DNA of 64,000 nucleotides from Rhodospirillales bacterium (GTDB taxonomy: Bacteria; Pseudomonadota; Alphaproteobacteria; ATCC43930; CGMCC-115725), in the NCBI GenBank assembly GCA_028288725.1, contig JAQGIC010000072.1, forward strand, positions 1 through 64,000. Direction: 5' to 3'. The notes beneath the pieces were generated by a model that did not search any database, was not told where the DNA came from, and saw nothing but the letters and a program-made list of their open reading frames with translations. Below, piece by piece: positions 2,097 through 17,039 of this stretch. The stretch's first letter is position 1, and every line of letters begins with the position of its first letter. A program made the position numbers and the translations under genes.

Positions 2097-2254
2097 GGGT
2101 GGCCTCTTTCCGGTGCAGGGTCTGGACGAGCGGCACCCTAGCAAGCGGAATTGAAGAAAATATTAGCAGCCGGGCGAAGGTGCCGGCCCTTGCCCTCAAT
2201 TTGGGCAAATGGAATGCTGGTCCCGGGGGTGACAATGGGCGAGGGGCAGCGGGC

Positions 2255-5200
2255 ATGAGCGGACGGCAGCGGATCGTTCGCGAGCGGCGGCAGTACAACC
2301 AGTGGGTCGCCAACCAGACGCTCGAGGATTACGCGCTCCGCTTCACCGCGAAGAAGGCGCGGCGCTGGTCGTCGTTCCGGGTCGCCAACACGGCCGTGGG
2401 CGCCATCTCGTTCCTGGCGTGCGAGGCGATCGGCGGCAGTCTGACGCTCAACTACGGCTTCACCAACACGGCGGCCGCGATCCTGGCGGTCGGGCTGCTG
2501 ATCTTCGCGACCGGCCTGCCGATCTGCTACTACGCCATCCGCCATGGCATCGACGTCGATCTGCTGACCCGCGGCGCCGGGTTCGGCTATATCGGCTCGA
2601 CCATCACCTCGCTGATCTACGCCTCGTTCACCTTCATCCTGTTCGCGGTCGAGGCCGTGATCATGTCGACGGCGCTCGAGACCTGTTTCGGGATTCCGCA
2701 GCCGGTGGGCTATGTGCTGGCCTCGGTCGCGGTCATCCCGATCGTGGCCTATGGCATCCGGATGATCAGCCGATTGCAGGTCTGGACCCAGCCGATCTGG
2801 CTGTTCTTCCAGATCGTCCCGCTGATCGTGATCGCGGTCGGCCATCCGACCGAGGTCGGCAACTGGACCGATTATCGCGGGCTCCTGGGCAATGGCAGCG
2901 GCGATTTCGACCTGCTGCTGTTCGGCATCGCCGCTTCGATCCTGCTGTCGCTCATCCCGCAGATCGGCGAGCAGGTCGATTACCTGCGTTTCCTGCCCAG
3001 CCGCACGGCCGGCAACCGGCTCGGCTGGTGGACGGCCCTGATCATGGCGGGGCCCGGCTGGATCTTCATGGGGGCGGCCAAGCTGTTCGCCGGCTCGTTC
3101 CTGGCCGTGCTGGTGCTGCAGCATGGCGTGCCCTACATCCACGCGACCGAGCCGGCGGAGCTCTATTCGGTCGCGTTCCAATATCTGGCGCTGTCGCCCA
3201 AGGCGGCGCTGATCCTGACCGGCATCTTCGTCGTCACCTGCCAGATGAAGATCAATGTCACCAACGCCTATGCCGGCTCGATCGCCTGGTCGAACTTCTT
3301 CTCGCGCCTGACCCACAGCCATCCGGGCCGCGTCGTCTGGGTGCTGTTCAACATCATCCTGTCGCTGACCCTGATGAACCTGGGCATCTTTGGGGTGATC
3401 GAGCGGATCCTCGGGCTCTATTCCAATTTCGCCGTCGCCTGGCTGGGCGCCATCGTCGCCGATCTGATCGTCAACAAGCCGCTGGGCTTGAGCCCGCCGG
3501 GCATCGAGTTCAAACGGGCGCATCTCTACGACATCAACCCGGTCGGTGTCGGCGCCATGCTGCTGGCGGTGGTGGCCTCGACGCTCGCCTTTTTCGGCAG
3601 CTTCGGTGCCACGGCCCAGGCGTTCGCGCCCTTCATCAGCCTGACCGTCGCCTTCGTCGCGGCACCGCTGATCGCCTGGGGCACCCGGGGGAAATATTAC
3701 ATCGCGCGGGCGCCCCAGATCGGCCTGGAGCCGGGCGCGGAAGTGCGCTGCTCGATCTGCGAGAACGTGTTCGAGCGCGAGGACATGGCCTATTGCCCGG
3801 CCTATGGCGGCGCCATCTGTTCGCTGTGCTGCACGCTCGACGCGCGCTGCCACGACAGCTGCAAGGAGGAGGCCCGGTTCGTCGAGCAGATCATGGCGCT
3901 GCTGCGCCGGCTGCTGCCGGCGCGGCTGGCGCTCGGCCTCAATTCCCGTATCGGCCATTTCATCGGCGTGCTGATCCTGTTCGCGCTCGTCATCGGCGGC
4001 GCGCTGACCTTCATCTATTACCTGGACGCGGTCGGACCGGCCTCCGACAAGGCGCTGATCGCCCGGACCCTGTGGCTGGTGTTCTTCAGCCTGCTGATCG
4101 TGTCCGGCGTCGCGGCCTGGCTCCTGGTGCTGGCGCACGAGAGCCGGCGCAAGGCCGAAGAGGAGTCCGACCGGCAGACCCATATGCTGATGCGCGAGAT
4201 CGAGGCGCACGAACGAACCGATCTGGAGCTGCAAAAGGCCAAGGAAGTGGCCGAGGCCGCCAATTTCGCCAAGAGCCGCTACGTCATCGGCATCAGCCAC
4301 GAGATCCGCGCGCCGCTGAACGCGATCTTCGGCTATGCCCAGCTGATGGAGCGGGACGGGGCGGCGGCGCCTTTGCGCCAGAACGCGATCCGCGTGATCC
4401 GGCGCAGTGCCGAGCATCTGTCGAACCTGATCGACGGGCTGCTCGACATCTCGAAGATCGAGGCCGGCCGCTTCATGCTCTATCGCGACCGGGTGCGCAT
4501 CCACGAGTTCCTCGACCAGATCGTCGACATGTTCCGCCTGCAGGCGCAGGCGCAAGGCATCGCATTCTATTACGAACAGCCGGATTGCCTGCCGCCTTAC
4601 GTCTATACCGACGAGAAGCGGCTGCGGCAGATCCTGATCAATCTCTTGTCGAACGCGGTGAAATATACCGAGCGCGGCCATGCGGCGCTGCGCATCTTCT
4701 ATCGCAGCCAGGTTGCCGAGTTCGAGATCGAGGATAGCGGCATCGGCATTCCCGAGGACGATATCGAACGCATCTTCGAACCGTTCGAGCGCGGCCAGAT
4801 GCCGAACGCGCGGACCGTGCCGGGCACCGGCCTCGGCCTCACCATCACCAAGCTGCTGACCGAGATGATGGGCGGCGCCATCTCGGTCGAGAGCGTGCCC
4901 GGCCAGGGCAGCGTCTTCCGCATCAAACTGTTTCTGTCCGAGGCGCCGGCACCCGATGCCCCGCCGGCGCCCCAGGCGCGCATCTCGGGCTATCGCGGCC
5001 GGCGCATCAAGGTGCTGATCGCCGACGACGACGCGGCGCATCTGGAACTGGTGCACGAGCTGCTGACGCCGCTGGGCTTCCTGATGTTCAGCGCGTCGGA
5101 CGGGCTGACCTGCCTGTCGCTGGCCGAGGAATGCCAGCCGGATCTGGTGCTGCTCGATATCTCGATGCCCGGGCTCGACGGCTGGAGCGTGGCGCGGCGC

Positions 5201-5626
5201 CTGCGCGAAGCGGGCCACACCGCGGCGCGCATCGTCATGATCTCGGCCAATGTCGATGAATTCCGCACGCGGCGCGAGGCGGAGCCGGCGCATGACGATT
5301 ACCTGATCAAGCCGATCGACGTGCAGCGGCTGATCGATCGCATCCAGGTGCTGCTCGGTCTCGACTGGATCGCGCAGGGCCAGGAAGAGGTGGCGCCGCC
5401 GCAGCCGCCGGCGGCGGCCCAGGCCGTTCCCGGCCGCCGCCATCTGGATGAACTGCACCAATTGGGACGGATCGGGTATATCAGGGGCATCGAGGCGAAA
5501 CTGGGCGAGATCGCGGCCGAAGCGCCGACGCTTGTCCCGTTCGCCGATCGGCTGGGCGAGATCGTCCGGCGCTTCGATCTCAAGCAATATATGAACATCC
5601 TCGAGGAGCTGCGCGCCGATGAGTGA
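2255..5626 (+). CDS. NCS1-permease-fused hybrid sensor histidine kinase/response regulator
   Basis: 1123 aa from ATG at 2255 (GAGGGG about 8 nt upstream); the frame is open from 2099 but the extra residues are not conserved-looking. Domain order: an NCS1 (purine/cytosine permease-like) membrane domain of roughly residues 30-490 with about 12 hydrophobic segments; a cysteine cluster at about 499-535 (CSIC, CPAYGGAICSLCC, CHDSC) resembling a zinc-binding module; two further membrane segments; HisKA with phospho-acceptor His682 in SHEIRAPLNAI; HATPase_c with LLSNAVKYTERG, DSGIGIPEDD and GTGLGLTITK; a REC domain with Asp968 in LLDISMPGLDG; and a tail of about 90 residues. The transporter domain probably works as a sensor for a nucleobase- or urea-like solute. 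It overlaps the response regulator gene by 8 nt. The ligand is unknown. Confidence 0.88.
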   Translation: MSGRQRIVRERRQYNQWVANQTLEDYALRFTAKKARRWSSFRVANTAVGAISFLACEAIGGSLTLNYGFTNTAAAILAVGLLIFATGLPICYYAIRHGIDVDLLTRGAGFGYIGSTITSLIYASFTFILFAVEAVIMSTALETCFGIPQPVGYVLASVAVIPIVAYGIRMISRLQVWTQPIWLFFQIVPLIVIAVGHPTEVGNWTDYRGLLGNGSGDFDLLLFGIAASILLSLIPQIGEQVDYLRFLPSRTAGNRLGWWTALIMAGPGWIFMGAAKLFAGSFLAVLVLQHGVPYIHATEPAELYSVAFQYLALSPKAALILTGIFVVTCQMKINVTNAYAGSIAWSNFFSRLTHSHPGRVVWVLFNIILSLTLMNLGIFGVIERILGLYSNFAVAWLGAIVADLIVNKPLGLSPPGIEFKRAHLYDINPVGVGAMLLAVVASTLAFFGSFGATAQAFAPFISLTVAFVAAPLIAWGTRGKYYIARAPQIGLEPGAEVRCSICENVFEREDMAYCPAYGGAICSLCCTLDARCHDSCKEEARFVEQIMALLRRLLPARLALGLNSRIGHFIGVLILFALVIGGALTFIYYLDAVGPASDKALIARTLWLVFFSLLIVSGVAAWLLVLAHESRRKAEEESDRQTHMLMREIEAHERTDLELQKAKEVAEAANFAKSRYVIGISHEIRAPLNAIFGYAQLMERDGAAAPLRQNAIRVIRRSAEHLSNLIDGLLDISKIEAGRFMLYRDRVRIHEFLDQIVDMFRLQAQAQGIAFYYEQPDCLPPYVYTDEKRLRQILINLLSNAVKYTERGHAALRIFYRSQVAEFEIEDSGIGIPEDDIERIFEPFERGQMPNARTVPGTGLGLTITKLLTEMMGGAISVESVPGQGSVFRIKLFLSEAPAPDAPPAPQARISGYRGRRIKVLIADDDAAHLELVHELLTPLGFLMFSASDGLTCLSLAEECQPDLVLLDISMPGLDGWSVARRLREAGHTAARIVMISANVDEFRTRREAEPAHDDYLIKPIDVQRLIDRIQVLLGLDWIAQGQEEVAPPQPPAAAQAVPGRRHLDELHQLGRIGYIRGIEAKLGEIAAEAPTLVPFADRLGEIVRRFDLKQYMNILEELRADE

Positions 5627-6527
5627 GCAGGGTATCCGGCGGGACATCGTCCTGATCGTGGATGATTCGCCGGAGACGCTGAGCTTTCTGACCGACGCGC
5701 TGGATCAATCGGGTCTGACCGTGCTGGTCGCGGTCGACGGCGCCGGCGCCTTGGAACTGTTGGACCAGATCACGCCGGATCTGGTGCTGATGGACGCGAT
5801 CATGCCGGGCATGGACGGGTTCGAATGCTGCCGCCGGCTGAAACGCCTCGGCCATCTGGCCCATGTGCCGGTCATCTTCATGACGGGCCTCAGCGAAACC
5901 GAGCATGTGGTCAAAGGGCTCGACGCCGGCGGGGTCGATTACGTGACCAAGCCGATCGTGGCCGAGGAGCTGATGGCGCGGATGCGCGTGCATCTGGCCA
6001 ATTCGCGCCTGACCCTGAGCGCGCGCATCGCGCTCGATGCGACCGGACGGTTCCTGCTGGCGATGGATCGCCAGGGCCGGCTGCTGTGGGCGACGCCCCA
6101 GGCGGCGTCGCTGCTGGCCGCCTCGTTCGACGGGTTCGAGGCCGAACGTTTCGCGCTGGCGCCCGAACTGGCCGAGCGGCTGGGCAACGCCCAGGACGGC
6201 CGGCTGGCGCTGGCGGGCGGCCGCCGGCGGCTGGAGCTGACCTATCTCAGCCGAACCGGGCCCGACGAGGTGCTGCTGCGCCTGACCGAGGTCGAGGAGG
6301 GCGGCGACGAGGGCTTCCTGAAGCAGCAGCTGGCGCTGACCGCGCGCGAGGCGGAGGTGCTCGTCTGGCTGGCGCGCGGCAAACCCAACCGCGATATCAG
6401 CGAGATCCTGGGCATCAGTCCGCGCACGGTGAACAAGCACCTGGAACAGATCTTTTCCAAGCTGGGCGTCGAGAACCGCGCCTCGGCCACGGCGCTGGCG
6501 GTGCGGGCCCTGGGGCAGCGGGGGTAG
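5619..6527 (+). CDS. Response regulator, REC plus LuxR-type HTH
   Basis: 302 aa. The N-terminal receiver has DDSPETLSFL and a phospho-acceptor Asp59 in LVLMDAIMPGMDGFECC, then the conserved Thr (FMTGLSE) and Lys (VTKPI). A middle region (about 130-225) resembles a divergent PAS-like segment (GRFLLAMDRQGRLLWATPQA). The C-terminus is a LuxR/GerE helix-turn-helix (LTAREAEVLVWLARGKPNRD, then TVNKHLEQIFSKLGV). It overlaps the kinase gene by 8 nt and is almost certainly its cognate regulator. Targets are unknown; the urea transporter genes 5 kb downstream are a reasonable guess. Confidence 0.93.
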   Translation: MSEQGIRRDIVLIVDDSPETLSFLTDALDQSGLTVLVAVDGAGALELLDQITPDLVLMDAIMPGMDGFECCRRLKRLGHLAHVPVIFMTGLSETEHVVKGLDAGGVDYVTKPIVAEELMARMRVHLANSRLTLSARIALDATGRFLLAMDRQGRLLWATPQAASLLAASFDGFEAERFALAPELAERLGNAQDGRLALAGGRRRLELTYLSRTGPDEVLLRLTEVEEGGDEGFLKQQLALTAREAEVLVWLARGKPNRDISEILGISPRTVNKHLEQIFSKLGVENRASATALAVRALGQRG

Positions 6528-6653: not shown

Positions 6654-8189
6654 CTATGGCTTCGACAATCGGCGCACGGGCTCTATGGCGCTGTCATCGC
6701 CCAGTGCTACGGCTTGCCGATACAGTTCCAAGGCCTTGGCCGGCTCGCCACGGTTGCCGATTATACCCATATGATCCAGCACCAGCGGGTCATAAGTCCA
6801 GGCGACGGCGGTCATGGCCCTGGCGCTGCCGGCGCGAGCCGCTTGGACGTAGAAGAGGCGCGCCGATGCAAAATCGCCCGTTCGCAACAAGACGTTTCCC
6901 CGCTCGATGATGGCCTCAATCTCAATCTTCGACAGCGTGGTCGCCGGGCCGGGCGGCAGCGGCGATACCGCCTGCGTTGGCCGGGGCGTCGCCGATGGTG
7001 CCGCGAGCACCGGCTTGGGTTCCGGCTCGATCGTTGGTGCCGCGGCAGTTGCGGGTTCGACCGGGGACGGGATGGGCGGCGTTGCCGGCACCGGCTCGCC
7101 TTCGACGGCTGCGCTCGGCATTGGGATTGCGTCTTCCACGGGGTCAACAGGCTCGGGAGGGCGCTCGGCAGCGGATGGTTTCGATGGCTCGACCGGGCTT
7201 TGCGCCGGAGGGGCGGCCGCCGTCGTGGATGGGTCGGCCACGGCCGAGATCAGAATCGGGGCAAGTGATCGCCCCAGGCCCGACATGGCTAAGGTGCCGC
7301 CGGTCACCAACACGGCAAGTGCTGCCATCCCCGCGCCGAGGCGCCAGCGCGAGGACGAGCCTCGTCGATGTCCGTGCGGGCGGGCGGGCGGCACCAACGG
7401 CTTCGTGTCGCCTTCCGAGGAAATCAGGGGTGCTGCGGACGGGTCCCGATCCAGATGGGCGCCATCCAGGCGCCCGACTCGCAGAAATTCGTCCCTGGCC
7501 AGCCCCAGCATTCGCCGCGGATTTCCCCCCGCCGCCGCGGTGATCTGCCTCATGATCTCGTTGGTCAGCACTTCGGGCGGGGGCACCGCGGCGCACGAGG
7601 CGCGATAGCGCAGAAATGGGGCCACCGCCTCGTCCGGCCAGGGGGAAAGCCGCAGCACGACCGGCGCACTCCAATTGTTATGAAGTCGGCTAACCTCGAT
7701 CAGCATTCCCAGGTCGATGCCGCCGGTCATTAGGATGCGATGGCTGGGGATTGTCTGTTCATACCCGTTCGAGATTGCCACGAGCTGTTCCAGAAAGCGC
7801 GGCGCTACCGCGTCGGCATGCTCGACGATCAGCAGGTTGTCGCTGGGGCGGCGTTCCGTCTCGGCGCTTTTCGATCGCGCGACGATACCTCTCCAGCTTC
7901 CCGGATCGAAATCCCGGCGGCAGACGTCAACGACCTGTTTCAAATCGAGTTTTGGATGGCCTTCGAGCCAGGCCACATGGTAGCGGCCTTGCATACGGCG
8001 CGCCGCTTGCCGAACCAGCTCGGTCTTTCCGCCACCGCTGGCTCCCAATAGAAATGTCGGGCTGCCCATATCGATTGCGAGAATGATATCGAATAGTATC
8101 TCTTCCAGAAATGGCGCCCCATAGAACCAACCAGCCAGGGCCTCTGCCTTTGGTCGAGCCTTATCCGCCATCACTCCGATCATCGTCAT
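6654..8189 (-). CDS. ExeA-like AAA ATPase with one membrane segment and a periplasmic Sel1/TPR-like domain
   Basis: 511 aa from ATG at 8189, chosen because a run of seven G lies just upstream; the frame stays open to 8264. Domain order: AAA ATPase with Walker A GASGGGKT (49-56) and a variant Walker B LLIVEHAD (about 119-126), an ExeA/TniB-like arrangement; a C-terminal lid with GGNPRRMLGLA; one membrane segment (about 282-303); a 100-residue proline/alanine-rich linker; and a terminal TPR/Sel1-like repeat domain (420-510, with GNVLLRTGDFASARLFYVQA). By topology the ATPase is cytoplasmic and the repeat domain periplasmic. It is divergent from the TAXI gene. GspA/ExeA help assemble secretins, but no secretion genes are present here, so the role is unknown. 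Confidence 0.8.
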   Translation of the reverse strand: MTMIGVMADKARPKAEALAGWFYGAPFLEEILFDIILAIDMGSPTFLLGASGGGKTELVRQAARRMQGRYHVAWLEGHPKLDLKQVVDVCRRDFDPGSWRGIVARSKSAETERRPSDNLLIVEHADAVAPRFLEQLVAISNGYEQTIPSHRILMTGGIDLGMLIEVSRLHNNWSAPVVLRLSPWPDEAVAPFLRYRASCAAVPPPEVLTNEIMRQITAAAGGNPRRMLGLARDEFLRVGRLDGAHLDRDPSAAPLISSEGDTKPLVPPARPHGHRRGSSSRWRLGAGMAALAVLVTGGTLAMSGLGRSLAPILISAVADPSTTAAAPPAQSPVEPSKPSAAERPPEPVDPVEDAIPMPSAAVEGEPVPATPPIPSPVEPATAAAPTIEPEPKPVLAAPSATPRPTQAVSPLPPGPATTLSKIEIEAIIERGNVLLRTGDFASARLFYVQAARAGSARAMTAVAWTYDPLVLDHMGIIGNRGEPAKALELYRQAVALGDDSAIEPVRRLSKP

Positions 8190-8385
8190 ATCCCCCCCAA
8201 CCATAGGATGGAATGCATCTTGGCGGAGCCGAGAGATCTGGAATCGTGCCGCTTCGCCGATCATAAAAATACGGCTGGGTGATTATTATTAGATCACTTA
8301 TGCTGAGTTTCGGCAAATATATATAGAACCTTAGAGCGCATGGAATCCGTTCCCATTGCGTTCCGTCGTACAGATGGAGGTTCTA
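8190..8385. promoter_or_regulatory. AT-rich divergent promoter region between the AAA ATPase and TAXI genes
   Basis: 196 bp between the two divergent starts, clearly more AT-rich than the surroundings (8265-8335). It contains an inverted repeat GTGAT-N9-ATCAC at 8279-8297 and a TATATA-rich stretch at 8317-8325 that could be a -10 region for the TAXI gene. No convincing -35 hexamer was found. The palindrome could be an operator serving both genes. Confidence 0.4.
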
Positions 8386-9519
8386 TTGAAGAAAAATATG
8401 AACTTGATACTGTCTGTGGTGGTGATGATTTGTGGGATATCGGCACCACTTGCACGCGTTTATGCCGACGATCCGAACTCAAGCGCGCGGTTGCTGGCCA
8501 AACAGGGCGGCGTCGGCATCGTCGCAGGCGGAATAGACGGCACTTACTTGAGGATAGCGGCGGATCTTGCCGCGGTTCTGGATGGCGACAGCCAACTGCG
8601 GGTTCTCCCGATGATCGGCAAGGGCTCGGTGCAGAACCTGTTCGATCTCCGCTATCTGCGGAATGTGGATATCGCGATCGTCCAGTCCGATGCCTTGGCG
8701 TTCATTCGCCAGGATCCATCGACAGCCGACGTCTCCAACTACGTTCGTTATGTGACCAAGCTGTACAACGAAGAATTTCAGATCCTGGCATCGAAGGACA
8801 TTCAATCTTTAGCCGATCTACGCGGCAAGAAAGTCAACACCGACGTCGTCGGCAGCGGCACGGGAATGACCGCGAACATCGTCTTCCGCAAGCTCGAAAT
8901 TCCGATTGTGGAACAGCATCTGAACCAGGCCGACGCCATTCAGGCCCTCAAGTCCGGAGACGTCGCCGCCGTTGTTTTCGTCGCGGGCAAGCCGGTCAAG
9001 CTGTTCTCTTCTATCGATGGCGCCAGCGGCATGCATTTCCTGAGCGTGCCACCTACGCCCAACTTGCTCGCGACCTACCTGCCGGCCCAATTGTCTCACG
9101 ACGATTATCCGCAACTCATCCCAAATGGCGCCTCGATAGACACGGTTGCCGTCGGTGCCGTCATGGCGATCTACAACCTGAGTCCCGGCACCACGCGCTA
9201 TCGCCAGGCTGCGGCGTTCGTCGAAGCGTTCTTCGGCAAGTTCAATAAATTTCTTGAGCCGCAACGCCACCCGAAGTGGCACGAGGTCAGCCTCGCGGCC
9301 GACCTGCCCGGTTGGAAGCGCTTCCAACCCGCGGGCGACTGGCTGGCTCAGCATTCGAACAGCGCGGAAAGCGCCAACGACGGGGTGCGCGAGGCATTCG
9401 AAATCTATCTCAATGAGCAGGCGATCAAAGAAAAAGGCCCCCCGCTGACCAGCGAAGAAAAGGCGGCTCTCTACGCGAGCTTCCGGAAGTGGAAGAGGGA
9501 GACTGCAGCGGCCCGCTGA
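8386..9519 (+). CDS. TAXI-family TRAP-type periplasmic solute-binding protein
   Basis: 377 aa if it starts at TTG 8386, which has GGAGG 5 nt upstream and gives a standard signal peptide (KKN basic start, hydrophobic core, cleavage near VYA-DD). The mature protein has the TAXI pattern GIVAGGIDGTYLRIAADLA, then GKGSVQNLFDL and DIAIVQSDALAF, and an SLADLRGKKVNTDVVGSGTG segment. A lysine/glutamate-rich C-terminal extension (about residues 330-377) goes beyond the minimal fold. Classical TAXI proteins feed a DctM-type TRAP permease; none is present in this window. The divergent AAA ATPase gene is the obvious candidate partner. The ligand is unknown. Confidence 0.88.
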   Translation: MKKNMNLILSVVVMICGISAPLARVYADDPNSSARLLAKQGGVGIVAGGIDGTYLRIAADLAAVLDGDSQLRVLPMIGKGSVQNLFDLRYLRNVDIAIVQSDALAFIRQDPSTADVSNYVRYVTKLYNEEFQILASKDIQSLADLRGKKVNTDVVGSGTGMTANIVFRKLEIPIVEQHLNQADAIQALKSGDVAAVVFVAGKPVKLFSSIDGASGMHFLSVPPTPNLLATYLPAQLSHDDYPQLIPNGASIDTVAVGAVMAIYNLSPGTTRYRQAAAFVEAFFGKFNKFLEPQRHPKWHEVSLAADLPGWKRFQPAGDWLAQHSNSAESANDGVREAFEIYLNEQAIKEKGPPLTSEEKAALYASFRKWKRETAAAR

Positions 9520-9788: not shown

Positions 9789-11057
9789 TCAGAACAGGGC
9801 GGTCAATTGCACGCCGGCGAGCGCCAGGATCAAGGCCGGCGGCATGACGACGAAGCCGAGGCCGAGAAAGCGCCAGGTGCCGACATCCTGCCCCTCGCGG
9901 CGGATCGCCACCAGCCATAAGAGGGTGGCGAGCGAGCCCGTCACCGACAGGTTGGGACCGAGATCGATGCCGACCAGCAACGCGCTGCCGACCCTCGCCG
10001 GCAGATGCCCGGCGTCGAGCGAACCGGCGATCAGGCCGACCGGCAGGTTGTTCATCAGGTTGCAGGCGATGGCGGACAGGATGCCGGCCGACCAGGAGGC
10101 GTTCGTGACCGAGCGATCCGCGGCTGTCTGGAGCAACCCGGTCAGTCTGCCCAGGACGCCGGTATGGGCCAGGCCCTCGACCAGAACGAACAGGCCGGCG
10201 ACGAGCGGCAGCACGCTCCAGGACACGCCCCGCAGCAGTCGCCGGGGTGTCTCGCGCTTGCGCCAAAGCACGATAGCCGCGGTTGCCGTGCCGGCGAGCA
10301 GGGTCGGCAGGCCGAGCGGGAGATCGAAGGCGGAAGTCAGCAACAGCACGACGGCCGTGACCGCGATGCCGGCGGCGGCCAGGATGGCGTCGGGCGGCAG
10401 GTCGGGCACGGGCGTGTCCCGTTCGATCGCCTCCCGCAATGACCGTCGCTGGGAGAACCGCAGGCCGACATAGGTCGCGGTGATCGCCAGAACCGACGGG
10501 AGGGTGAACCGCATCAGCCAATGGGCGAGCGTCGGCATATGGCTGCCGAAGATCACCAGATTGGCCGGGTTGGAGATCGGCAGGACGAAGCTGGCGGCAT
10601 TCGCGATGAAGGCGCAGACGAACAGATAGGGCAATGGTTCCGCCCTGGCGGCTTTGGCGGCGGCATAGACCGCGGGGGTCAGCACGACGGCCGTGGCGTC
10701 GTTCGACAGAAACACCGTCACGAGGATGCCGACCAGATAGACCAGCGCGAACAGGCGCGGCGCGGAACCATGCGCGGCCCGCGTCGCCTGTGCGGCCAGC
10801 CAGTCGAACAAGCCTTCTTCCCGGGCGAGTTCCGCCAGCAGCATCATGCCGATCAGAAACAGATAGACGTCCGTGCCCTTGCCGATTGCGGCGAGCGCGT
10901 CGCGCCAGGGCAGCAGGGTCAGCACGACCAGCGCCGCGGCGCCGGCGACGGCCCAGATCGCCTCCGGCAGGCGCCAGGGACGCAGGATGACCCCGGCGGT
11001 GGCGAGTGCCGAAATGACCCAGGTCAGAGCATCAGGGTCCGACAGGATGCTGCCCAC
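9789..11057 (-). CDS. ArsB-like anion/arsenite permease (ArsB/NhaD superfamily)
   Basis: 422 aa, about 11 hydrophobic segments, consistent with the ArsB/NhaD ion transporter superfamily. Typical features are YLFLIGMMLLAELAREEGLF near residue 65, VFLSNDATAVVLTPAVYAA near 115, and NAASFVLPISNPANLVIFG near 150; the SNDATAVVLTP and PISNPAN segments match arsenite efflux pumps. The cytoplasmic loop around residues 205-215 is charged. No arsR, arsC or acr3 gene is adjacent, so the substrate could equally be another oxyanion or dicarboxylate. It is divergent from urtA. Confidence 0.8.
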   Translation of the reverse strand: MGSILSDPDALTWVISALATAGVILRPWRLPEAIWAVAGAAALVVLTLLPWRDALAAIGKGTDVYLFLIGMMLLAELAREEGLFDWLAAQATRAAHGSAPRLFALVYLVGILVTVFLSNDATAVVLTPAVYAAAKAARAEPLPYLFVCAFIANAASFVLPISNPANLVIFGSHMPTLAHWLMRFTLPSVLAITATYVGLRFSQRRSLREAIERDTPVPDLPPDAILAAAGIAVTAVVLLLTSAFDLPLGLPTLLAGTATAAIVLWRKRETPRRLLRGVSWSVLPLVAGLFVLVEGLAHTGVLGRLTGLLQTAADRSVTNASWSAGILSAIACNLMNNLPVGLIAGSLDAGHLPARVGSALLVGIDLGPNLSVTGSLATLLWLVAIRREGQDVGTWRFLGLGFVVMPPALILALAGVQLTALF

Positions 11058-11358
11058 GCGTCACGAGCCCGACGGTACGGGCGCCAGGATCGGAAGGACC
11101 AAGGGGCGGCGATGCATTCCCTATGATAGAGCGCAGTCGGCGCGGATATTCAAGCGAGGCCCGCCGCGCCGGGACGATCCGGGGCCTGCCGCAGTGCAAT
11201 ATACGTCAAACGCCCCATACCGGAGCCCTGGCCCGGGCCATAGGCTGCTATCCGGTCGGAAAGGCGAGGGCGCCGAAGTCCCATCCCTTCCGACCGGGGT
11301 TTCACCAGGGCGGTCGACGAGGGCTTTCGTCGGTGCCATGCGATCGAAGGGGATGGGG
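11058..11358. promoter_or_regulatory. Divergent region arsB-like / urtA with a long leader hairpin
   Basis: 301 bp without a gene. Its main structure is a perfect 10-bp inverted repeat, CCGGTCGGAA at 11252-11261 pairing with TTCCGACCGG at 11288-11297, ending about 60 nt upstream of the urtA start. There is no T-run after it, so it is not a standard terminator; a leader regulatory structure or operator is possible. I looked for a sigma-54 GG-N10-GC promoter, expected for a nitrogen-regulated gene, and did not find a good one. Confidence 0.45.
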
Positions 11359-12654
11359 ATGAGTTTCATTACCAGGCGGGCGGCACTCGCGGGTGCGACG
11401 GCCCTGATGACCGCTCTGACCTTGGCGGGTCAGGCGCGCGCGGCCGACGACACGATCAAGATCGGCGTGCTGCATTCGCTGTCGGGTACGATGGCGATCA
11501 GCGAGACCACGCTCAAGGACACGGTCCTGATGATGGTCGACGATCTGAACAAGAAGGGCGGTCTGCTCGGCAAGAAGGTCGAGGCCGTCGTGGTCGATCC
11601 GGCCTCGAACTGGCCGCTGTTCGCCGAAAAGGCGCGCGAGCTCATTTCCAAGGATCATGTCGCCGTCGTGTTCGGCTGCTGGACCTCGGTCAGCCGCAAG
11701 TCGGTGCTGCCGGTGTTCGAGGAGCTGAACGGCCTGTTGTTCTATCCCGTCCAGTATGAGGGCGAGGAAAGCTCGAACAACGTGTTCTACACCGGCGCCG
11801 CGCCCAATCAGCAGGCGATCCCGGCGGTCGAATATCTGATGAGCAAGGAAGGCGGCGAGGTGAAGCGCTGGGTGCTGGAAGGCACGGACTACGTTTATCC
11901 GCGCACGACCAACAAGATCCTCGAGGCGTTCCTGAAATCGAAGGGCGTTCCGGCCGAGGACATCAAGGTCAACTACACGCCGTTCGGCTTCAGCGATTGG
12001 CAGACCGAAGTGGCCGACATCAAGAAGTTCGCGTCGGCCGGCAAGAAGACTGCCGTCGTCTCGACCGTCAATGGCGACGCCAACGTGCCGTTCTACAAGG
12101 AACTGGCCAACGAGGGCATCAAGGCGACCGATATTCCGGTCGTGGCCTTCTCGGTCGGCGAGGAAGAGCTGGCCGGCATCGATACCAAGAACCTGGTCGG
12201 TCATCTGGCGGCCTGGAACTACTTCGAATCGGTCAAGAACTCGACCAACGAAGCCTTCATCAAGAAGTGGCACACCTACATCAAGAACGACAAGCGCGTG
12301 ACCAACGACCCGATGGAAGCGACCTATATCGGCTTCAAGATGTGGACCCAGGCCGTGCTGCAGGCCGGCACGACCAATGTCGACGCGGTCCGTCAGGCGA
12401 TGTATGGCCAGAAGGTGGCCGCTCCCGGCGGCTTCCAGGCAGTCATGAACACCAATCATCATCTATCCAAGCCGGTGATGATCGGTGAAATCCAGGCGAA
12501 CGGTCAGTTCGACATCGTCTGGCAGACCAAGGCGCCGATCAAGGCCGACGCCTGGAGCCCGTTCCTGCCGGAAGACAAGGGCAAGGTCGCCGATTGGACC
12601 TTCCCCTGGAATTGCGGCAATTGCACGAGCCCGAAAGCTGTCGCGTACGAATAA
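11359..12654 (+). CDS. urtA: Urea ABC transporter, periplasmic urea-binding protein UrtA
   Basis: 431 aa from ATG at 11359 with AAGGGG 6 nt upstream; ATGs at 11338 and 11353 are in frame and possible. A twin-arginine-like N-terminus (ITRRAALAG) with a hydrophobic core and an ARA-A cleavage site gives export. The mature protein carries the UrtA hallmarks IKIGVLHSLSGTMAISE, then VFGCWTSVSRKSVLPVFEE, LLFYPVQYEGEESSNNVFYT and WKRE-type C-terminal features, ending NCGNCTSPK. It binds urea (or short amides) for the UrtBC/DE pump. It is separated from urtB by 207 bp that contain a palindromic repeat, so its transcript may be partly uncoupled from the rest of the operon. Confidence 0.96.
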   Translation: MSFITRRAALAGATALMTALTLAGQARAADDTIKIGVLHSLSGTMAISETTLKDTVLMMVDDLNKKGGLLGKKVEAVVVDPASNWPLFAEKARELISKDHVAVVFGCWTSVSRKSVLPVFEELNGLLFYPVQYEGEESSNNVFYTGAAPNQQAIPAVEYLMSKEGGEVKRWVLEGTDYVYPRTTNKILEAFLKSKGVPAEDIKVNYTPFGFSDWQTEVADIKKFASAGKKTAVVSTVNGDANVPFYKELANEGIKATDIPVVAFSVGEEELAGIDTKNLVGHLAAWNYFESVKNSTNEAFIKKWHTYIKNDKRVTNDPMEATYIGFKMWTQAVLQAGTTNVDAVRQAMYGQKVAAPGGFQAVMNTNHHLSKPVMIGEIQANGQFDIVWQTKAPIKADAWSPFLPEDKGKVADWTFPWNCGNCTSPKAVAYE

Positions 12655-12731
12655 GCGGCTGCATGAAAAACTAGGAACCGCAGCGACGGACCGGATGGCA
12701 ATGCCGTCCGGTCCGGAGCAATTCTGATCTT

Positions 12732-12841
12732 CTAGTGGATAAATCAGACGGACCAGTCCGTCTGATTTTACCGCAACTCATTAATGTGATGGGCCGATTC
12801 ACCTAACGCTTGGAAATCAAGCGTCAGGATCGGACCACTAG
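12732..12841 (+). repeat. CTAG-bounded palindromic repeat, family A, full-length copy (urtA-urtB gap)
   Basis: 110 bp with inverted ends CTAGTGG (12732-12738) and CCACTAG (12834-12840). Inside are a first hairpin ATCAGACGGA-loop-TCCGTCTGAT (12743-12766) and a second, ACGCTTG-loop-CAAGCGT (about 12806-12824), flanked by matching GCCGAT and ATCGG segments. Related copies lie at 21858-21919, 23908-24019 and 56481-56558. Sitting between urtA and urtB, it could attenuate transcription or protect the urtA mRNA 3' end. Confidence 0.85.
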
Positions 12842-12861
12842 GCTGGCGGGGGTTCCTGACC

Positions 12862-14469
12862 GTGAGATTGATCCGTGCGCTGGTGATCCTCGGGCTGTTG
12901 CTGGTGCCGCTCATGGGCCGCGCCGCCAATCTGCCCGACGCCGAGCTTGCCAAGTTGGTCACCGGCCTCGCCGGCGACGGCTTCGACGATAAAATCGCCG
13001 CGATCGATGCGCTTGGCACGAGCGGCGACGCCCGGGCGGTCGCGATTCTGAAGGCGCTGACCGACGGCAAGCTCGCCGCGAGCGACGACAAGCAGATGCT
13101 GATCGAGGGGGCCGGCGGAAAATTTACCGATGCCGTGACCGGTGCGCCGGTGACGCCCGGTGCCGAACCCGAACGGATTCACGTCAACAACAGGCTGCGC
13201 GGCCTTATCGACGGGGCGCTGTCGCGCCTTACGCTCTACAGCGCCGATCCGGGTGATCGCCTGAGTGCCGCGACCGAGGCGCTGCATCATCCGTCGCTGG
13301 GCGCGGTGCCGTCGCTCGACAAGGCGCTGGCGACCGAGCAGGACAAGGGCGTCGCGGCCGCACTCAAGCTGGCGCGCGCCGCCGGTCTGTTGCAGAGCCC
13401 TGATGCGGCCGTGCGGCTCGCCGCGGTCGACGAATTGGCGGCTTCGACGGATTCCGAGGTGCGCGGTCTGCTGGGCGAACTGGTCGGCGGTCATGAGAGC
13501 GATCCCAAGGTGATCGCCGCCGCCAAGACGGCGCTGGCCAAGATCGAGCGGCAGCTTGCCTATATCGAGATCGGCATCAACCTGTTCCAGGGCCTCAGCC
13601 TCGGTTCGGTCCTGCTGCTGGCGGCGATGGGTCTCGCCGTGACCTTCGGCGTCATGGGCGTGATCAACATGGCCCATGGCGAGATGATCATGCTGGGCGC
13701 CTATACCACCTTCGTGGTGCAGGAGATCTTCCGCGCCTTTCTGCCGGCCGGCCTGTTCGATCTCTATCTGGTCGTCTCGGTCCCCGCGGCCTTCCTGGTC
13801 GCGGGCGCGGTCGGCGTGGCGCTGGAGCGGACCATCATCCGCTTTCTCTACGGCCGCCCGCTCGAAACGCTGCTGGCAACCTGGGGCATCAGCCTGATGC
13901 TGCAGCAGCTCGTCCGCAGCATTTTCGGCGCGCCCAACAAAGAGGTCGCCAATCCCAGCTGGATGACCGGCGGCTTCCAGATCCTGGGCGGTTTCACCGT
14001 CACCTGGAACCGGCTGGTCATCATCGCCTTCGGCTTCGTCGTGCTGGGGGCGCTGGTGCTGGTGCTGCGCCGGACCAACCTCGGCCTGCACATGCGCGCC
14101 GTCACCCAGAACCGCAAGATGGCGGCGATCATGGGCATTCCGACCGACAAGGTCGATGCGCTCACCTTCGGGCTGGGATCCGGTATCGCGGGCATGGCCG
14201 GCGTCGCGCTCAGCCAGATCGGCAATGTCAGTCCGAACCTGGGTACGATCTACATCATCGACAGCTTCATGGTCGTCGTGTTCGGCGGGGTCGGCAGTCT
14301 GGTCGGCACGCTGGCCGGCGCCATGGGGCTGGGCGTGGTCAACAAGTTCCTGGAGCCGTTCGCCGGCGCCGTGCTGGGCAAGATCCTGGTACTGGTCGCC
14401 ATCATCATCTTCATCCAGTTCCGGCCGCGCGGGCTGTTCGCGCTCAAGGGGCGGTCGGTGGAGGCGTAG
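12862..14469 (+). CDS. urtB: Urea ABC transporter permease UrtB
   Basis: 535 aa from GTG at 12862. As in other UrtB proteins, a signal-like segment and a periplasmic domain of about 225 residues (helical, HEAT-like, with two VAxAKTALAKI-type helices) precede a LivH-type permease domain. The permease part begins near GINLFQGLSLGSVLLLAAMG and includes FGVMGVINMAHGEMIMLGAY, RFLYGRPLETLLATWGISLM and MVVVFGGVGSLVGTLAGA. It forms the membrane channel with UrtC. The urtC start follows the stop codon directly. Confidence 0.95.
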   Translation: MRLIRALVILGLLLVPLMGRAANLPDAELAKLVTGLAGDGFDDKIAAIDALGTSGDARAVAILKALTDGKLAASDDKQMLIEGAGGKFTDAVTGAPVTPGAEPERIHVNNRLRGLIDGALSRLTLYSADPGDRLSAATEALHHPSLGAVPSLDKALATEQDKGVAAALKLARAAGLLQSPDAAVRLAAVDELAASTDSEVRGLLGELVGGHESDPKVIAAAKTALAKIERQLAYIEIGINLFQGLSLGSVLLLAAMGLAVTFGVMGVINMAHGEMIMLGAYTTFVVQEIFRAFLPAGLFDLYLVVSVPAAFLVAGAVGVALERTIIRFLYGRPLETLLATWGISLMLQQLVRSIFGAPNKEVANPSWMTGGFQILGGFTVTWNRLVIIAFGFVVLGALVLVLRRTNLGLHMRAVTQNRKMAAIMGIPTDKVDALTFGLGSGIAGMAGVALSQIGNVSPNLGTIYIIDSFMVVVFGGVGSLVGTLAGAMGLGVVNKFLEPFAGAVLGKILVLVAIIIFIQFRPRGLFALKGRSVEA

Positions 14470-15597
14470 ATGATGCGGCGCACCCCGCTCCTGACCGGCT
14501 CCGGCTGGCTCGTCTTCCTGGCGGCGATGCTGGTCGCCGCCGTGCTGATCCCGGTGCTGGCAACCCTGCCGCCGCCGGACTCGATGTTCCGCCTGCCGGC
14601 CTATCTGGTGCCGCTGTTCGGCAAATATCTCTGCTACGCCATCCTGGCGCTCGCCCTCGACCTGATCTGGGGTTATGCCGGCATCCTGAGCCTGGGGCAC
14701 GGCGCCTTCTTCGCGCTCGGCGGCTACGCCATGGGCATGTATCTGATGCGCCAGATCGGCACGCGCGGCGTCTATGGCGATCCGATCCTGCCGGATTTCA
14801 TGGTGTTCCTGAACTGGCGGGAATTGCCCTTCGCCTGGTGGGGCTTCCATAATTTCGCCTATGCCGCCTTCATGGCGCTGGCGGTGCCGGGCGCGCTCGC
14901 AGCCCTGTTCGGCTGGTTCGCCTTCCGCAGCCGCGTCACCGGCGTCTATCTGTCGATCATCACCCAGGCAATGACTTACGCCCTGTTGCTCGCCTTCTTT
15001 CGCAACGACATGGGCTTCGGCGGCAACAACGGCCTGACCGATTTCAAGGAAATCCTGGGCTACGAGGTCCAGGCGCCGTCGACCCGCCTCGGGCTCTATG
15101 TCATCACGGCCGTGGCGCTGGGCCTGTCGTTCCTCGTCTGCCGTTTCGTGGTGACGACCCGGTTCGGCCGGCTGCTGCTGGCGCTCAGGGATGCGGAAAG
15201 CCGGGTGCGCTTCATCGGCTATTCGACGACCGGGGCCAAGCTGTTCGTGTTCGTGCTGTCGGCCCTGTTGTGCGGCCTCGCCGGCGCGCTCTACGTGCCG
15301 CAGGTCGGCATCATCAATCCGAGCGAATTCCAGCCGGGCAATTCGATCGAGGTCGCGATCTGGGTCGCGGTCGGCGGGCGTGGCACGCTGGTCGGCGCCA
15401 TCCTGGGCGCGCTGGTGGTGAATTTCGTCAAGACCTGGCTGACCGGTGCTGCGCCCGAGCTCTGGCTGTTCGCGCTGGGCGCGCTGTTCATCGTCGTGAC
15501 GCTCGCGATGCCGAACGGCATCCTGGGCCTGGTCGCCCAGGCGAAGCAATGGCGCCGGACGCCGACGGCGCCTGTCGCGGAGACGGTCCATGACTGA
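14470..15597 (+). CDS. urtC: Urea ABC transporter permease UrtC
   Basis: 375 aa LivM-type permease starting directly after the urtB stop (a second ATG follows at 14473). Visible family motifs are ALALDLIWGYAGILSLGHGA near residue 55, the UrtC-typical long loop with YGDPILPDFMVFLNWRELPF, GFGGNNGLTDFKEILGY, and VGGRGTLVGAILGALVVNF near the C-terminus. It has about 8-9 membrane segments. The gene overlaps urtD by 8 nt. Confidence 0.95.
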   Translation: MMRRTPLLTGSGWLVFLAAMLVAAVLIPVLATLPPPDSMFRLPAYLVPLFGKYLCYAILALALDLIWGYAGILSLGHGAFFALGGYAMGMYLMRQIGTRGVYGDPILPDFMVFLNWRELPFAWWGFHNFAYAAFMALAVPGALAALFGWFAFRSRVTGVYLSIITQAMTYALLLAFFRNDMGFGGNNGLTDFKEILGYEVQAPSTRLGLYVITAVALGLSFLVCRFVVTTRFGRLLLALRDAESRVRFIGYSTTGAKLFVFVLSALLCGLAGALYVPQVGIINPSEFQPGNSIEVAIWVAVGGRGTLVGAILGALVVNFVKTWLTGAAPELWLFALGALFIVVTLAMPNGILGLVAQAKQWRRTPTAPVAETVHD

Positions 15598-16342
15598 CCC
15601 CCTTTCGACCGCCCAGCTCTATCTCGACGGCATCACCGTCTCGTTCGACGGGTTCAAGGCGCTGAACGCGCTGTCGCTGGTGATCGAGCCCGGCGAGTTG
15701 CGCACGATCATCGGGCCGAACGGCGCCGGCAAGACGACCATGATGGACGTCATCACCGGCAAGACCCGGCCCGACAGCGGCACGGCGATGTTCGAGGGGC
15801 GCCACGACCTGACGCGGCTCGACGAGCCGACGATCGCCAATCTGGGCATCGGCCGGAAATTCCAGAAGCCGACCGTGTTCGAGAACCTGACGGTCGAGGA
15901 AAATCTCGAGCTGGCACTCAAGGACGACCGGCGCATCCGCCACACGCTGTTCCGTCGCCTGGACGAGGAGCAGGAGGCGAAGCTGGAACGCGTGCTGGCC
16001 CAGGTCGGGCTGATGCGGCGCCGGACCGAACTGGCCGGGCTGTTGAGCCATGGTCAGAAGCAATGGCTCGAGATCGGCATGCTGCTGGTGCATGACCCGC
16101 GCCTGATCCTGCTCGACGAGCCGGTCGCCGGCATGACCGATGCCGAGACGGCGGCCACGGCCGATCTGATCACGCGGCTGGCGCGCGATCGCACGATCGT
16201 GGTGGTCGAGCACGACATGGTGTTCGTGCGCAGCCTGGGCGCCAAGGTCACGGTGCTGCATGAAGGCTCGGTTCTGGCCGAAGGCTCGATCGACGCGGTG
16301 CAGAACCACCCGCGCGTGATCGAGGTCTATCTGGGGCGATGA
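15590..16342 (+). CDS. urtD: Urea ABC transporter ATPase UrtD
   Basis: 250 aa LivG-type ATPase. Walker A GPNGAGKTT, a Q-loop region with GRKFQKPTVFENLTVEEN (UrtD-typical), an unusual signature LLSHGQKQWLEIG (LSHGQKQ replaces LSGGQ, normal for UrtD), Walker B LILLDEPVAGM and the H-loop VVEHDM are all present. It energises urea uptake together with UrtE. It starts inside the end of urtC and is followed by urtE after 4 nt. Confidence 0.95.
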   Translation: MTDPLSTAQLYLDGITVSFDGFKALNALSLVIEPGELRTIIGPNGAGKTTMMDVITGKTRPDSGTAMFEGRHDLTRLDEPTIANLGIGRKFQKPTVFENLTVEENLELALKDDRRIRHTLFRRLDEEQEAKLERVLAQVGLMRRRTELAGLLSHGQKQWLEIGMLLVHDPRLILLDEPVAGMTDAETAATADLITRLARDRTIVVVEHDMVFVRSLGAKVTVLHEGSVLAEGSIDAVQNHPRVIEVYLGR

Positions 16343-16346
16343 CAGC

Positions 16347-17039
16347 ATGTTGACCGTCGATGCGATCGATCTCTCCTACGGCGCCAGCCAGATCCTGCGC
16401 CGCGTCAGCCTGACCGCCAGGAAGGGCGAGGTAACCTGCGTGCTGGGCCGCAACGGCGTCGGCAAGACCAGCCTGATCCGCGGCATCTTCGGGCTGCAGC
16501 CGATCAAGGCCGGCCACATTCTGTGGGAGGGCCAGGCCATCGACAAGCTGCCGGCCCATCGCCGCGCCGCAGCGGGCCTCGCCCTGGTGCCGCAGGGCCG
16601 CGAGATCTTCCCGCGCCTGACGGTGCTGGAAAACCTCAAGACCGGCCTCGCCGCCGCCAAGGGCGCCAAGACCATTCCGGACGAGATCTTCGAGTTGTTT
16701 CCGGTGCTGGACCAGATGCTGCACCGGCGCGGCGGCGATCTGTCGGGCGGTCAGCAACAGCAATTGTCGATCGCCCGCGCGCTCGTCACCCGGCCGACCT
16801 GCCTGGTGCTGGACGAGCCGACCGAGGGCATCCAGCCCTCGATCATCAAGGACATCGGCCGCGTCATCACCCTGCTGGCCCAGCGCGGCGACATGGCGAT
16901 CCTGCTGGTCGAGCAATATCTTGATTTCGCCCGCGAACTGGCCGACCGCTTCGCCGTCATGGAACGCGGCGAGGTCGTGATCTCCGGCAATCGCGGCGAG
17001 CTGGACGACCAGGCGGTGCAGCGATATTTGGCGGTTTAA
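16347..17039 (+). CDS. urtE: Urea ABC transporter ATPase UrtE
   Basis: 230 aa LivF-type ATPase with Walker A GRNGVGKTS, signature LSGGQQQQLSIARAL, Walker B LVLDEPTEGIQPSII and a C-terminal VEQYLDFARELADRFAVMER segment typical of UrtE. It is the last gene of urtABCDE and is followed by a hairpin shared with the convergent UDG gene. No urease or urea amidolyase genes lie within the window. Confidence 0.95.
   Translation: MLTVDAIDLSYGASQILRRVSLTARKGEVTCVLGRNGVGKTSLIRGIFGLQPIKAGHILWEGQAIDKLPAHRRAAAGLALVPQGREIFPRLTVLENLKTGLAAAKGAKTIPDEIFELFPVLDQMLHRRGGDLSGGQQQQLSIARALVTRPTCLVLDEPTEGIQPSIIKDIGRVITLLAQRGDMAILLVEQYLDFARELADRFAVMERGEVVISGNRGELDDQAVQRYLAV

Follow-up and report, generated by a model that had tools for sequence, protein, structure and literature searches.

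The closest systems described so far join a transporter-like domain to a sensor kinase. CrbS, a hybrid kinase with an SLC5-STAC front part, acts with the LuxR-type regulator CrbR in acetate utilisation, and the promoters of the uptake and assimilation genes carry an imperfect inverted repeat, according to the available part of the source (PMC5715377). CbrA, a histidine transceptor kinase, also holds transporter domain and kinase in one chain; its transporter domain is SLC5 with STAC and PAS, its partner is CbrB, and the accessible sections of PMC13022988 mention no cysteine module. In the anammox bacterium Kuenenia, a nitrogen-source transporter domain is likewise fused to a kinase, the domain being an ammonium transporter and the ligand ammonium (PMC5764959, partial text). 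Here we describe a hybrid sensor histidine kinase of transceptor type, encoded with a LuxR-type response regulator in the first 64,000 nucleotides of contig JAQGIC010000072.1 of a Rhodospirillales bacterium (hereafter the window), near a complete urtABCDE transporter operon. We propose that the two proteins probably form a two-component system that responds to urea or to similar short-chain amides and switches on uptake genes.

The locus shares with CrbS/CrbR the transporter-like domain on a hybrid kinase, the LuxR-type partner and an imperfect inverted repeat upstream of uptake genes. It differs in that, where CrbS has SLC5 with STAC, the sensor has an NCS1-like domain, a module of eight cysteines and a transmembrane (TM) hairpin, in that urea or amide genes stand in place of acetate genes, and in the box itself. 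Because its domain is NCS1-like, the sensor falls outside the SLC5-STAC family; by analogy, its anatomy may work as in CrbS/CrbR and CbrA, with a transporter domain feeding a kinase. A preliminary description of this DNA had proposed a transporter-kinase fusion of the CbrA sort carrying an NCS1 domain, and our results support it. As far as our searches show, the system is real, widespread and unnamed: no description of this fusion was found among the titles and abstract openings given by literature searches for it, its regulator or similar transceptors, which left most subscription journals outside their scope. Parts of the setting have been reported. In PMC13296017 a second urtABCDE has a two-component pair of LuxR type next to it, PMC13209695 describes an amiE-fmdA-fmdB-urtABCDE cluster, and the SIMBAL paper (PMC3098086) argues that the amidase/formamidase-linked Urt type of Bradyrhizobium carries amides and not urea; in the available portions of these three sources, the permease-like sensor domain, the cysteine module and the box are undescribed.

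The sensor gene runs uninterrupted on the plus strand from an ATG at 2255 to a stop at 5626 and encodes 1123 amino acids; a same-genus relative has an open reading frame (ORF) with identical first residues. The preliminary description had given the span 2255-6527 for a permease-kinase-receiver protein of 1123 residues. Such a protein is indeed encoded by the single ORF 2255-5626 with its HisKA, HATPase_c and Response_reg domains, but the remainder of the span is a second plus-strand gene (5619-6527), whose start overlaps the end of the sensor gene by 8 nt and which encodes the LuxR-type regulator (302 aa; Response_reg, E 1.6e-28, with Asp 59; GerE, E 5.6e-19). The sensor chain begins with an NCS1-like membrane domain of LeuT fold, the putative ligand-binding part (residues 1-480; 2255-3694), assigned from an AlphaFold2 model, likeness to CodB and Mhp1, and hhalign. 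A zinc-finger-like module with eight invariant cysteines (residues 496-537; 3740-3865) follows, with model strands at 496-522 and weak fold matches, and then two further TM helices (residues 565-659; 3947-4231), placed by hydropathy and by model helices 565-591 and 596-659, the second of which extends into a signalling helix. Pfam delimits HisKA (residues 673-738; 4271-4468; E 5.5e-17) with the phospho-accepting His 682, HATPase_c (785-894; 4607-4936; E 7.5e-28) and a receiver (920-1031; 5012-5347; E 5.3e-21) with Asp 968. The short C-terminal part (1036-1123; 5360-5623) has no conserved His and is not evidently an Hpt domain. What defines a hybrid kinase within a two-component system is therefore all present: the HisKA His, HATPase_c, the receiver Asp and an adjoining regulator. 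H682 and D968 are kept in all 72 sensors compared (window included; rows of 1050-1300 aa), so the architecture is not a product of chance. A minus-strand ORF covering the gene (2138-5647) was rejected as a GC-rich shadow, the plus frame being favoured by GC3 and by the Pfam domains.

Relatives were counted in two sets; strains of Sinorhizobium meliloti and Pseudomonas putida are among the carriers of the system. The 80 named loci are the best 80 of at least 591 matches and are rich in Bradyrhizobium; the survey was hence repeated in a spread sample of 398 Pseudomonadota genomes. The kinase is in frame in 75 of the 76 named loci with a complete ORF, and a LuxR regulator lies within 300 nt downstream in 71/74 relatives. 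Leaving out 21 named loci with insufficient flank, UrtA is found in 58 of the remaining 59, all five Urt genes in 54, formamidase in 50, AmiE in 18 and urease in 6. In the spread sample 54 genomes match, two of them solely by weak permease hits (G214, G425); with these and the weak kinase-less hits G232:C40 and G236:C8 not counted as sensors, 57 sensors were found in 52/398 genomes. UrtA-type or formamidase (FmdA) genes lie within 15 kb of 51 of the 57, the rough chance expectation being 0.009 UrtA-like genes per sensor; 86 UrtA places of at least 36% identity and 41 of 43 FmdA places entered this test, weaker rows being dropped. The preliminary description had named the lack of any neighbourhood link with urt or purine-catabolism genes across relatives as speaking against its reading; the outcome was the opposite, the link with urt being strong.

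The neighbourhoods fall into kinds. By the spread sample, 36 sensors have an amide-type UrtA with formamidase, 13 a window-type UrtA, two formamidase alone, and six none of these within 15 kb; urease genes adjoin four of the six (G059, G264, G418, G428), the other two being G150:C125, near a contig end, and G263:C31. By the genes on the sequence examined, we call a sensor amide-linked when it has formamidase or an amide-type UrtA (less than 60% identical to that of the window) and neither urease nor a window-type UrtA, and urea-linked when it has urease or a window-type UrtA (at least 60%) and neither formamidase nor an amide-type UrtA. Five genomes have two sensors. Four (G197, G264, G285, G418) have one by urease or window-type urt genes and one by a formamidase operon, and in G130 both are by formamidase. 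The window's own urtA (11359-12654, plus strand) scores 570.3 bits against TIGR03407 (cut-off 492.75); two amide-linked UrtA proteins also pass, with 556 and 537.6 bits, so this model does not separate urea from amide. The L019 protein compared alongside gave no match, probably because of a wrong frame.

Sensor genes were also seen on plasmids. The front part matches 533 plasmid records, 342 of them from Klebsiella, and among the Klebsiella matches listed are proteins annotated as 'ATP-binding protein', 'ArcB' or 'response regulator'. At the single plasmid locus examined, L014 (NZ_CP022926.1), the sensor stands with urtABCDE and formamidase, adjoining insertion sequences and resistance genes.

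A candidate regulator box accompanies this gene set. In 43 dereplicated regions separating the sensor from urtA or fmdD, the inverted repeat TACG-N8-CGTA occurs in 28 (at most 6 in shuffles), and the 18-bp palindrome ATACGTCAnnTGACGTAT occurs with up to three mismatches in 33, against 0/430 shuffles. Scanned with the matrix, the window gives its top score, 17.7, at the predicted box ATACGTCAAACGCCCCAT (11201-11218, plus strand), 140 nt before urtA. The next site in the window scores 10.6, and five shuffled windows reach up to 12.5; the identical 18 bp precede urtA in G001 and G012. The window box would be a degenerate copy of the palindrome, since a plain consensus search with up to three mismatches misses 11201-11218. 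A genome-wide search with a pattern modelled on the window's own site gave a single match, which says little. Sigma-54 promoters, sought with a consensus at no more than one mismatch, were found in 0/69 regions separating sensor and transporter genes (0.5 expected).

The matrix was then applied to 40 held-out loci, a locus being counted when its best site lay no more than 450 nt upstream of the start of a tested gene (UrtA, urease and sensor included). At a score of at least 10, 29 loci have such a site, compared with a mean of 0.745 and a maximum of 4 for 200 column-shuffled matrices; without a score limit the figures are 30, 3.28 and 9. Two of the siteless loci, L138 and L164, are a variant without the LuxR regulator, as expected if the box belongs to that regulator, and five (L010, L011, L039, L059, L100) have no UrtA or urease gene on the sequence examined. 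In 20 genomes that hold both kinds of promoter, 20/20 sensor-linked promoters but only 1/20 unlinked urtA promoters have a site scoring at least 10. Because 12 of the linked sites recur unchanged in the set from which the matrix was built, the 20/20 is not fully independent, though the contrast with 1/20 is drawn within genomes. Together, the neighbourhoods of relatives and the predicted box at urtA speak for control of nitrogen uptake through urt, as had been proposed.

The variant at L138 (7502-10156) and L164 (7166-9847) joins the NCS1-Cys front to a kinase that lacks a receiver, and the next ORF encodes a receiver-kinase protein; formamidase is nearby, and no LuxR-type regulator match was found at either locus. 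In Acinetobacter, L017 holds a kinase-less NCS1-like paralogue with a four-Cys tail (13147-14793), divergent from the sensor gene, and a predicted box lies in the region separating the two genes. This suggests that the kinase-less permease is the regulated transporter there, and makes it a candidate urea or amide transporter. An Acinetobacter plasmid carries, next to a urease operon, the C-terminal remnant of such a permease (L021, 5025-5282), and L044 has neither a Urt gene nor a box site.

The front part had been given the NCS1 family name, which family searches did not return. Residues 1-542 match no Pfam model, PF02133 being absent even at E ≤10, nor is PF02133 found in the window's own genome at 0.001; residues 1-572 match no NCBIfam model above its cut-off, the front parts of five relatives match no relevant Pfam family, PF02133 included, and residues 1-672 hold no Pfam domain at E ≤0.001 (no search with the STAC model by name). 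The name is nonetheless borne out by hhalign, by the predicted fold and by a permease that bridges the two families. Residues 1-660, modelled with AlphaFold2 on an alignment of 52 sensors, give a good model (pLDDT 84.7, pTM 0.85). In Foldseek the first five ranks all go to CodB or Mhp1, and VIA-align gives CodB (Z 35.1, rmsd 3.3, 397 aligned) and Mhp1 entries (Z 30.7, 28.1, 27.5; 4d1a: rmsd 4.0, 433 aligned) ahead of the next family, AgcS (Z 24.2). The best SSS-type row, DUR3, reaches Z 23.7, below both, and places the transporter domain outside SLC5 (SSS). A profile of the 52 sensors aligns by hhalign with a plasmid cytosine permease (E 8.5e-5, probability 60%, 342 columns). The bridge runs from the sensor to the kinase-less Acinetobacter paralogue (45%), on to the 497-aa L133 permease of genome G232 (30%, E 9.6e-36), which matches PF02133 at 3.6e-9. 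Sequence searches of the PDB with the sensor, the profile and L133 gave nothing meaningful.

By its modelled fold, the front part is best filed as a divergent NCS1-like domain and not as a canonical NCS1 symporter, because the Na2-site hydroxyls of CodB are not kept. It shares the fold of CodB and Mhp1 but differs from NCS1 transporters in having no PF02133 match, no full set of stacking aromatics and no Na2-site threonines, and in being fused to a kinase. MetT, which accepts a guanidine compound without a ring (PMC13390362, available part), shows that NCS1 proteins are not confined to ring compounds. The L133 permease itself (9949-11442) lies just before an AmiC-like gene (35% to AmiC) and an ORF (11324-13168) that looks nitrilase-like by eye.

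The cysteine cluster, noted before at about 499-535, is conserved: Cys 499, 502, 514, 522, 525, 526, 532 and 536 are invariant in 52/52 aligned sensors, the window included. Modelled in isolation, the module forms short strands and a helix (pLDDT 76.5). Foldseek gives no match for it at E 0.001, and what fold comparison gives is weak (best Z 3.3, rmsd 7.4, 68 aligned), with zinc-binding RING, FYVE and LIM folds among them. It likely holds zinc. The kinase-less Acinetobacter paralogue keeps a four-Cys form (CxxC...CxxC), and the module is lost in a kinase-less paralogue of Arthrobacter.

For the pocket, CodB positions were mapped onto the sensor through a HMMER alignment of CodB with the cytosine permease and then hhalign. 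According to the available part of the CodB paper, Q105, W108, F204 and N280 contact the base, the side chains of T278/T279 bind sodium, and the two base-stacking aromatics are conserved throughout NCS1. The four contacts map to T126, L129, L233 or I234, and N334 of the sensor, where the window thus has L129 and L233/I234 in place of the aromatic sandwich. T278 and T279 map to K332 and I333, both present in 52/52 sensors, and the hydroxyls of the Na2 site are absent. Eleven residues (E57, T126, E133, L233, Q236, E239, Q240, Q330, K332, N334 and N337) are identical in 52/52 amide-linked and in 20/20 urea-linked sensors. Position 233 is L in 72/72 sensors; position 129 is F in 51/52 amide-linked and 11/20 urea-linked sensors, so an aromatic is retained there in most relatives and only the second is lost family-wide. 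From the aligned sequences we infer a pocket that is polar and conserved and that lacks both the usual sodium site and the full aromatic sandwich. F129L accompanies urea linkage (L in 9/20 urea-linked against 1/52 amide-linked sensors) but is backed by just 2/6 independent pairs (p 0.5), and as a residue separating the two groups it is a lead only. For this comparison L140 was left out of the urea-linked group, and a quick tree of 85 rows requires seven changes of linkage with or without it.

Altogether, a sensor of urea or urea-like amides that turns on uptake genes is the account we consider probable, and it could work as follows. The NCS1-like domain would bind a small H2N-C(=O)- ligand in its polar pocket; it would do so without the aromatic sandwich that grips nucleobases, and probably with no need of sodium. 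The conformational change would run through the cysteine module, in which zinc probably serves as structural coupler, and through the extra TM hairpin and the signalling helix. The kinase, whose domains are plainly present, would then autophosphorylate on H682, and the phosphate would pass to D59 of the LuxR-type regulator, with D968 as a relay or a brake. The regulator would bind the palindrome, a site known from comparison, and activate the uptake operon, which in the window would be urtABCDE with its box at 11201-11218. The identity of the ligand, the metal, the phosphotransfer and the binding to DNA are thus all putative. Since the neighbouring set in most relatives is a related ABC operon with formamidase, often with amidase, the ligand probably differs between lineages, being urea in some and formamide or a different amide in others. 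A more far-reaching version, to which we give somewhat less than even chances, is that an NCS1-fold domain gave up sodium coupling (Lys at the Na2 place) and base stacking to become a urea/amide receptor, coupled by a zinc module to a kinase and steering a one-palindrome regulon that is interchangeable between urea and amide operons, as a widespread and undescribed class. If the account is true, bacteria have a membrane sensor dedicated to urea and short amides. The set of ligands can be tested, an operator is predicted, and urea- and amide-linked paralogues occur as natural pairs, so that a second transceptor class beside SLC5-STAC would be open to study of how a LeuT-fold transporter turns into a kinase input.

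Several observations weigh against this account. No urease or formamidase lies beside the window's urt operon; urease alpha is encoded elsewhere in the genome, and a formamidase like that of relatives was not found in it, just a more distant PF03069 protein. The two kinds of UrtA bear the same NCBIfam name, the urea/amide split resting on gene context and identity, and genome G399, where L140 lies and whose sensor is one of the 36 with amide-type UrtA and formamidase, has urease by the sensor as well. The palindrome of the window box is imperfect, and just one of its halves is strong; a full-consensus search at up to three mismatches misses it, and so does the core consensus TACGTCANNTGACGTA at the same tolerance, whose one match, at 12389 inside urtA, is at the chance level (0.63 expected). 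Eleven of the 40 held-out loci lack a site of score ≥10 at the tested genes, among them L139, L140 and L147, which are urease- or urt-linked, and the amide-linked L162. The pocket residues, finally, come from aligning sequences of about 20% identity and not from coordinates.

Other inputs can be imagined for the same protein. The permease domain might detect a purine or something formed in its breakdown, such as allantoin, nitrogen uptake being the downstream response, as the preliminary description had suggested. Purine catabolism yields urea as an end product, the closest folds are those of CodB, which transports nucleobases, and Mhp1, which transports hydantoin, and a cytosine permease gene lies about 13 kb from the sensor at one annotated locus, L016. 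The recurrent neighbours are, however, urease, formamidase and aliphatic amidase (in neighbourhoods that were not searched for purine-catabolism genes), and both the stacking aromatics and the sodium ligands of CodB are replaced, with L129 and L233/I234 at the aromatic places (F still at 129 in most relatives). We therefore regard purine sensing as very improbable. Hardly better are the prospects of a metal or redox input at the cysteine module, for instance how much zinc or nickel is available to amidohydrolases or urease, with the NCS1-like domain as a mere anchor. Urease requires nickel and the eight cysteines are invariant, but so, to the same degree, is the polar core of the NCS1-like domain, and the module's reduction to four cysteines in the Acinetobacter paralogue and its loss in that of Arthrobacter are what a structural element of the permease tail would show.

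A different question is how the ligand would be read. With the same ligand, the domain could still be an active transporter, the kinase reading transport flux rather than occupancy. CbrA has been reported to combine transport and kinase activity (PMC7096432, available part), the transporter residues of the sensor are strongly conserved, and the Acinetobacter arrangement, with its kinase-less paralogue next to the sensor and a predicted box separating the two, would also fit. Against this stand the replacement of the CodB sodium threonines by K332 and I333 in every one of the 52 sensors and the report that regulator activation by CrbS and CbrA is independent of transport (PMC5715377, partial text). 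Flux reading is, in our view, unlikely, with better prospects than purine or metal sensing.

The urea transporter operon noted about 5 kb from the sensor is complete. After urtA come urtB (12862-14469), urtC (14470-15597), urtD (15590-16342) and urtE (16347-17039), all on the plus strand and assigned by gene order and similarity to relatives (to their annotated urtB in the case of urtB); the operon starts 4.8 kb past the end of the regulator gene and ends at 17039. The spacing of 5 kb is true of the window but is a local feature, the regulator and urtA matches lying 285 nt apart in same-genus G001 (L008). The segment 6528-11100 is missing at that place in G001, and the extra 4.6 kb reflect either an insertion in the window or a loss in G001. 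The segment has three ORFs, at 6654-8264 (minus), 8356-9519 (plus) and 9789-11057 (minus). The first encodes 536 aa with a P-loop-like N-terminal part, recognised by eye, and a TPR-like C-terminal part, its sole Pfam match being TPR_2, below cut-off. The second encodes a TAXI-type solute-binding protein, which scores 82.0 bits against TIGR02122, just below the cut-off of 84.35.

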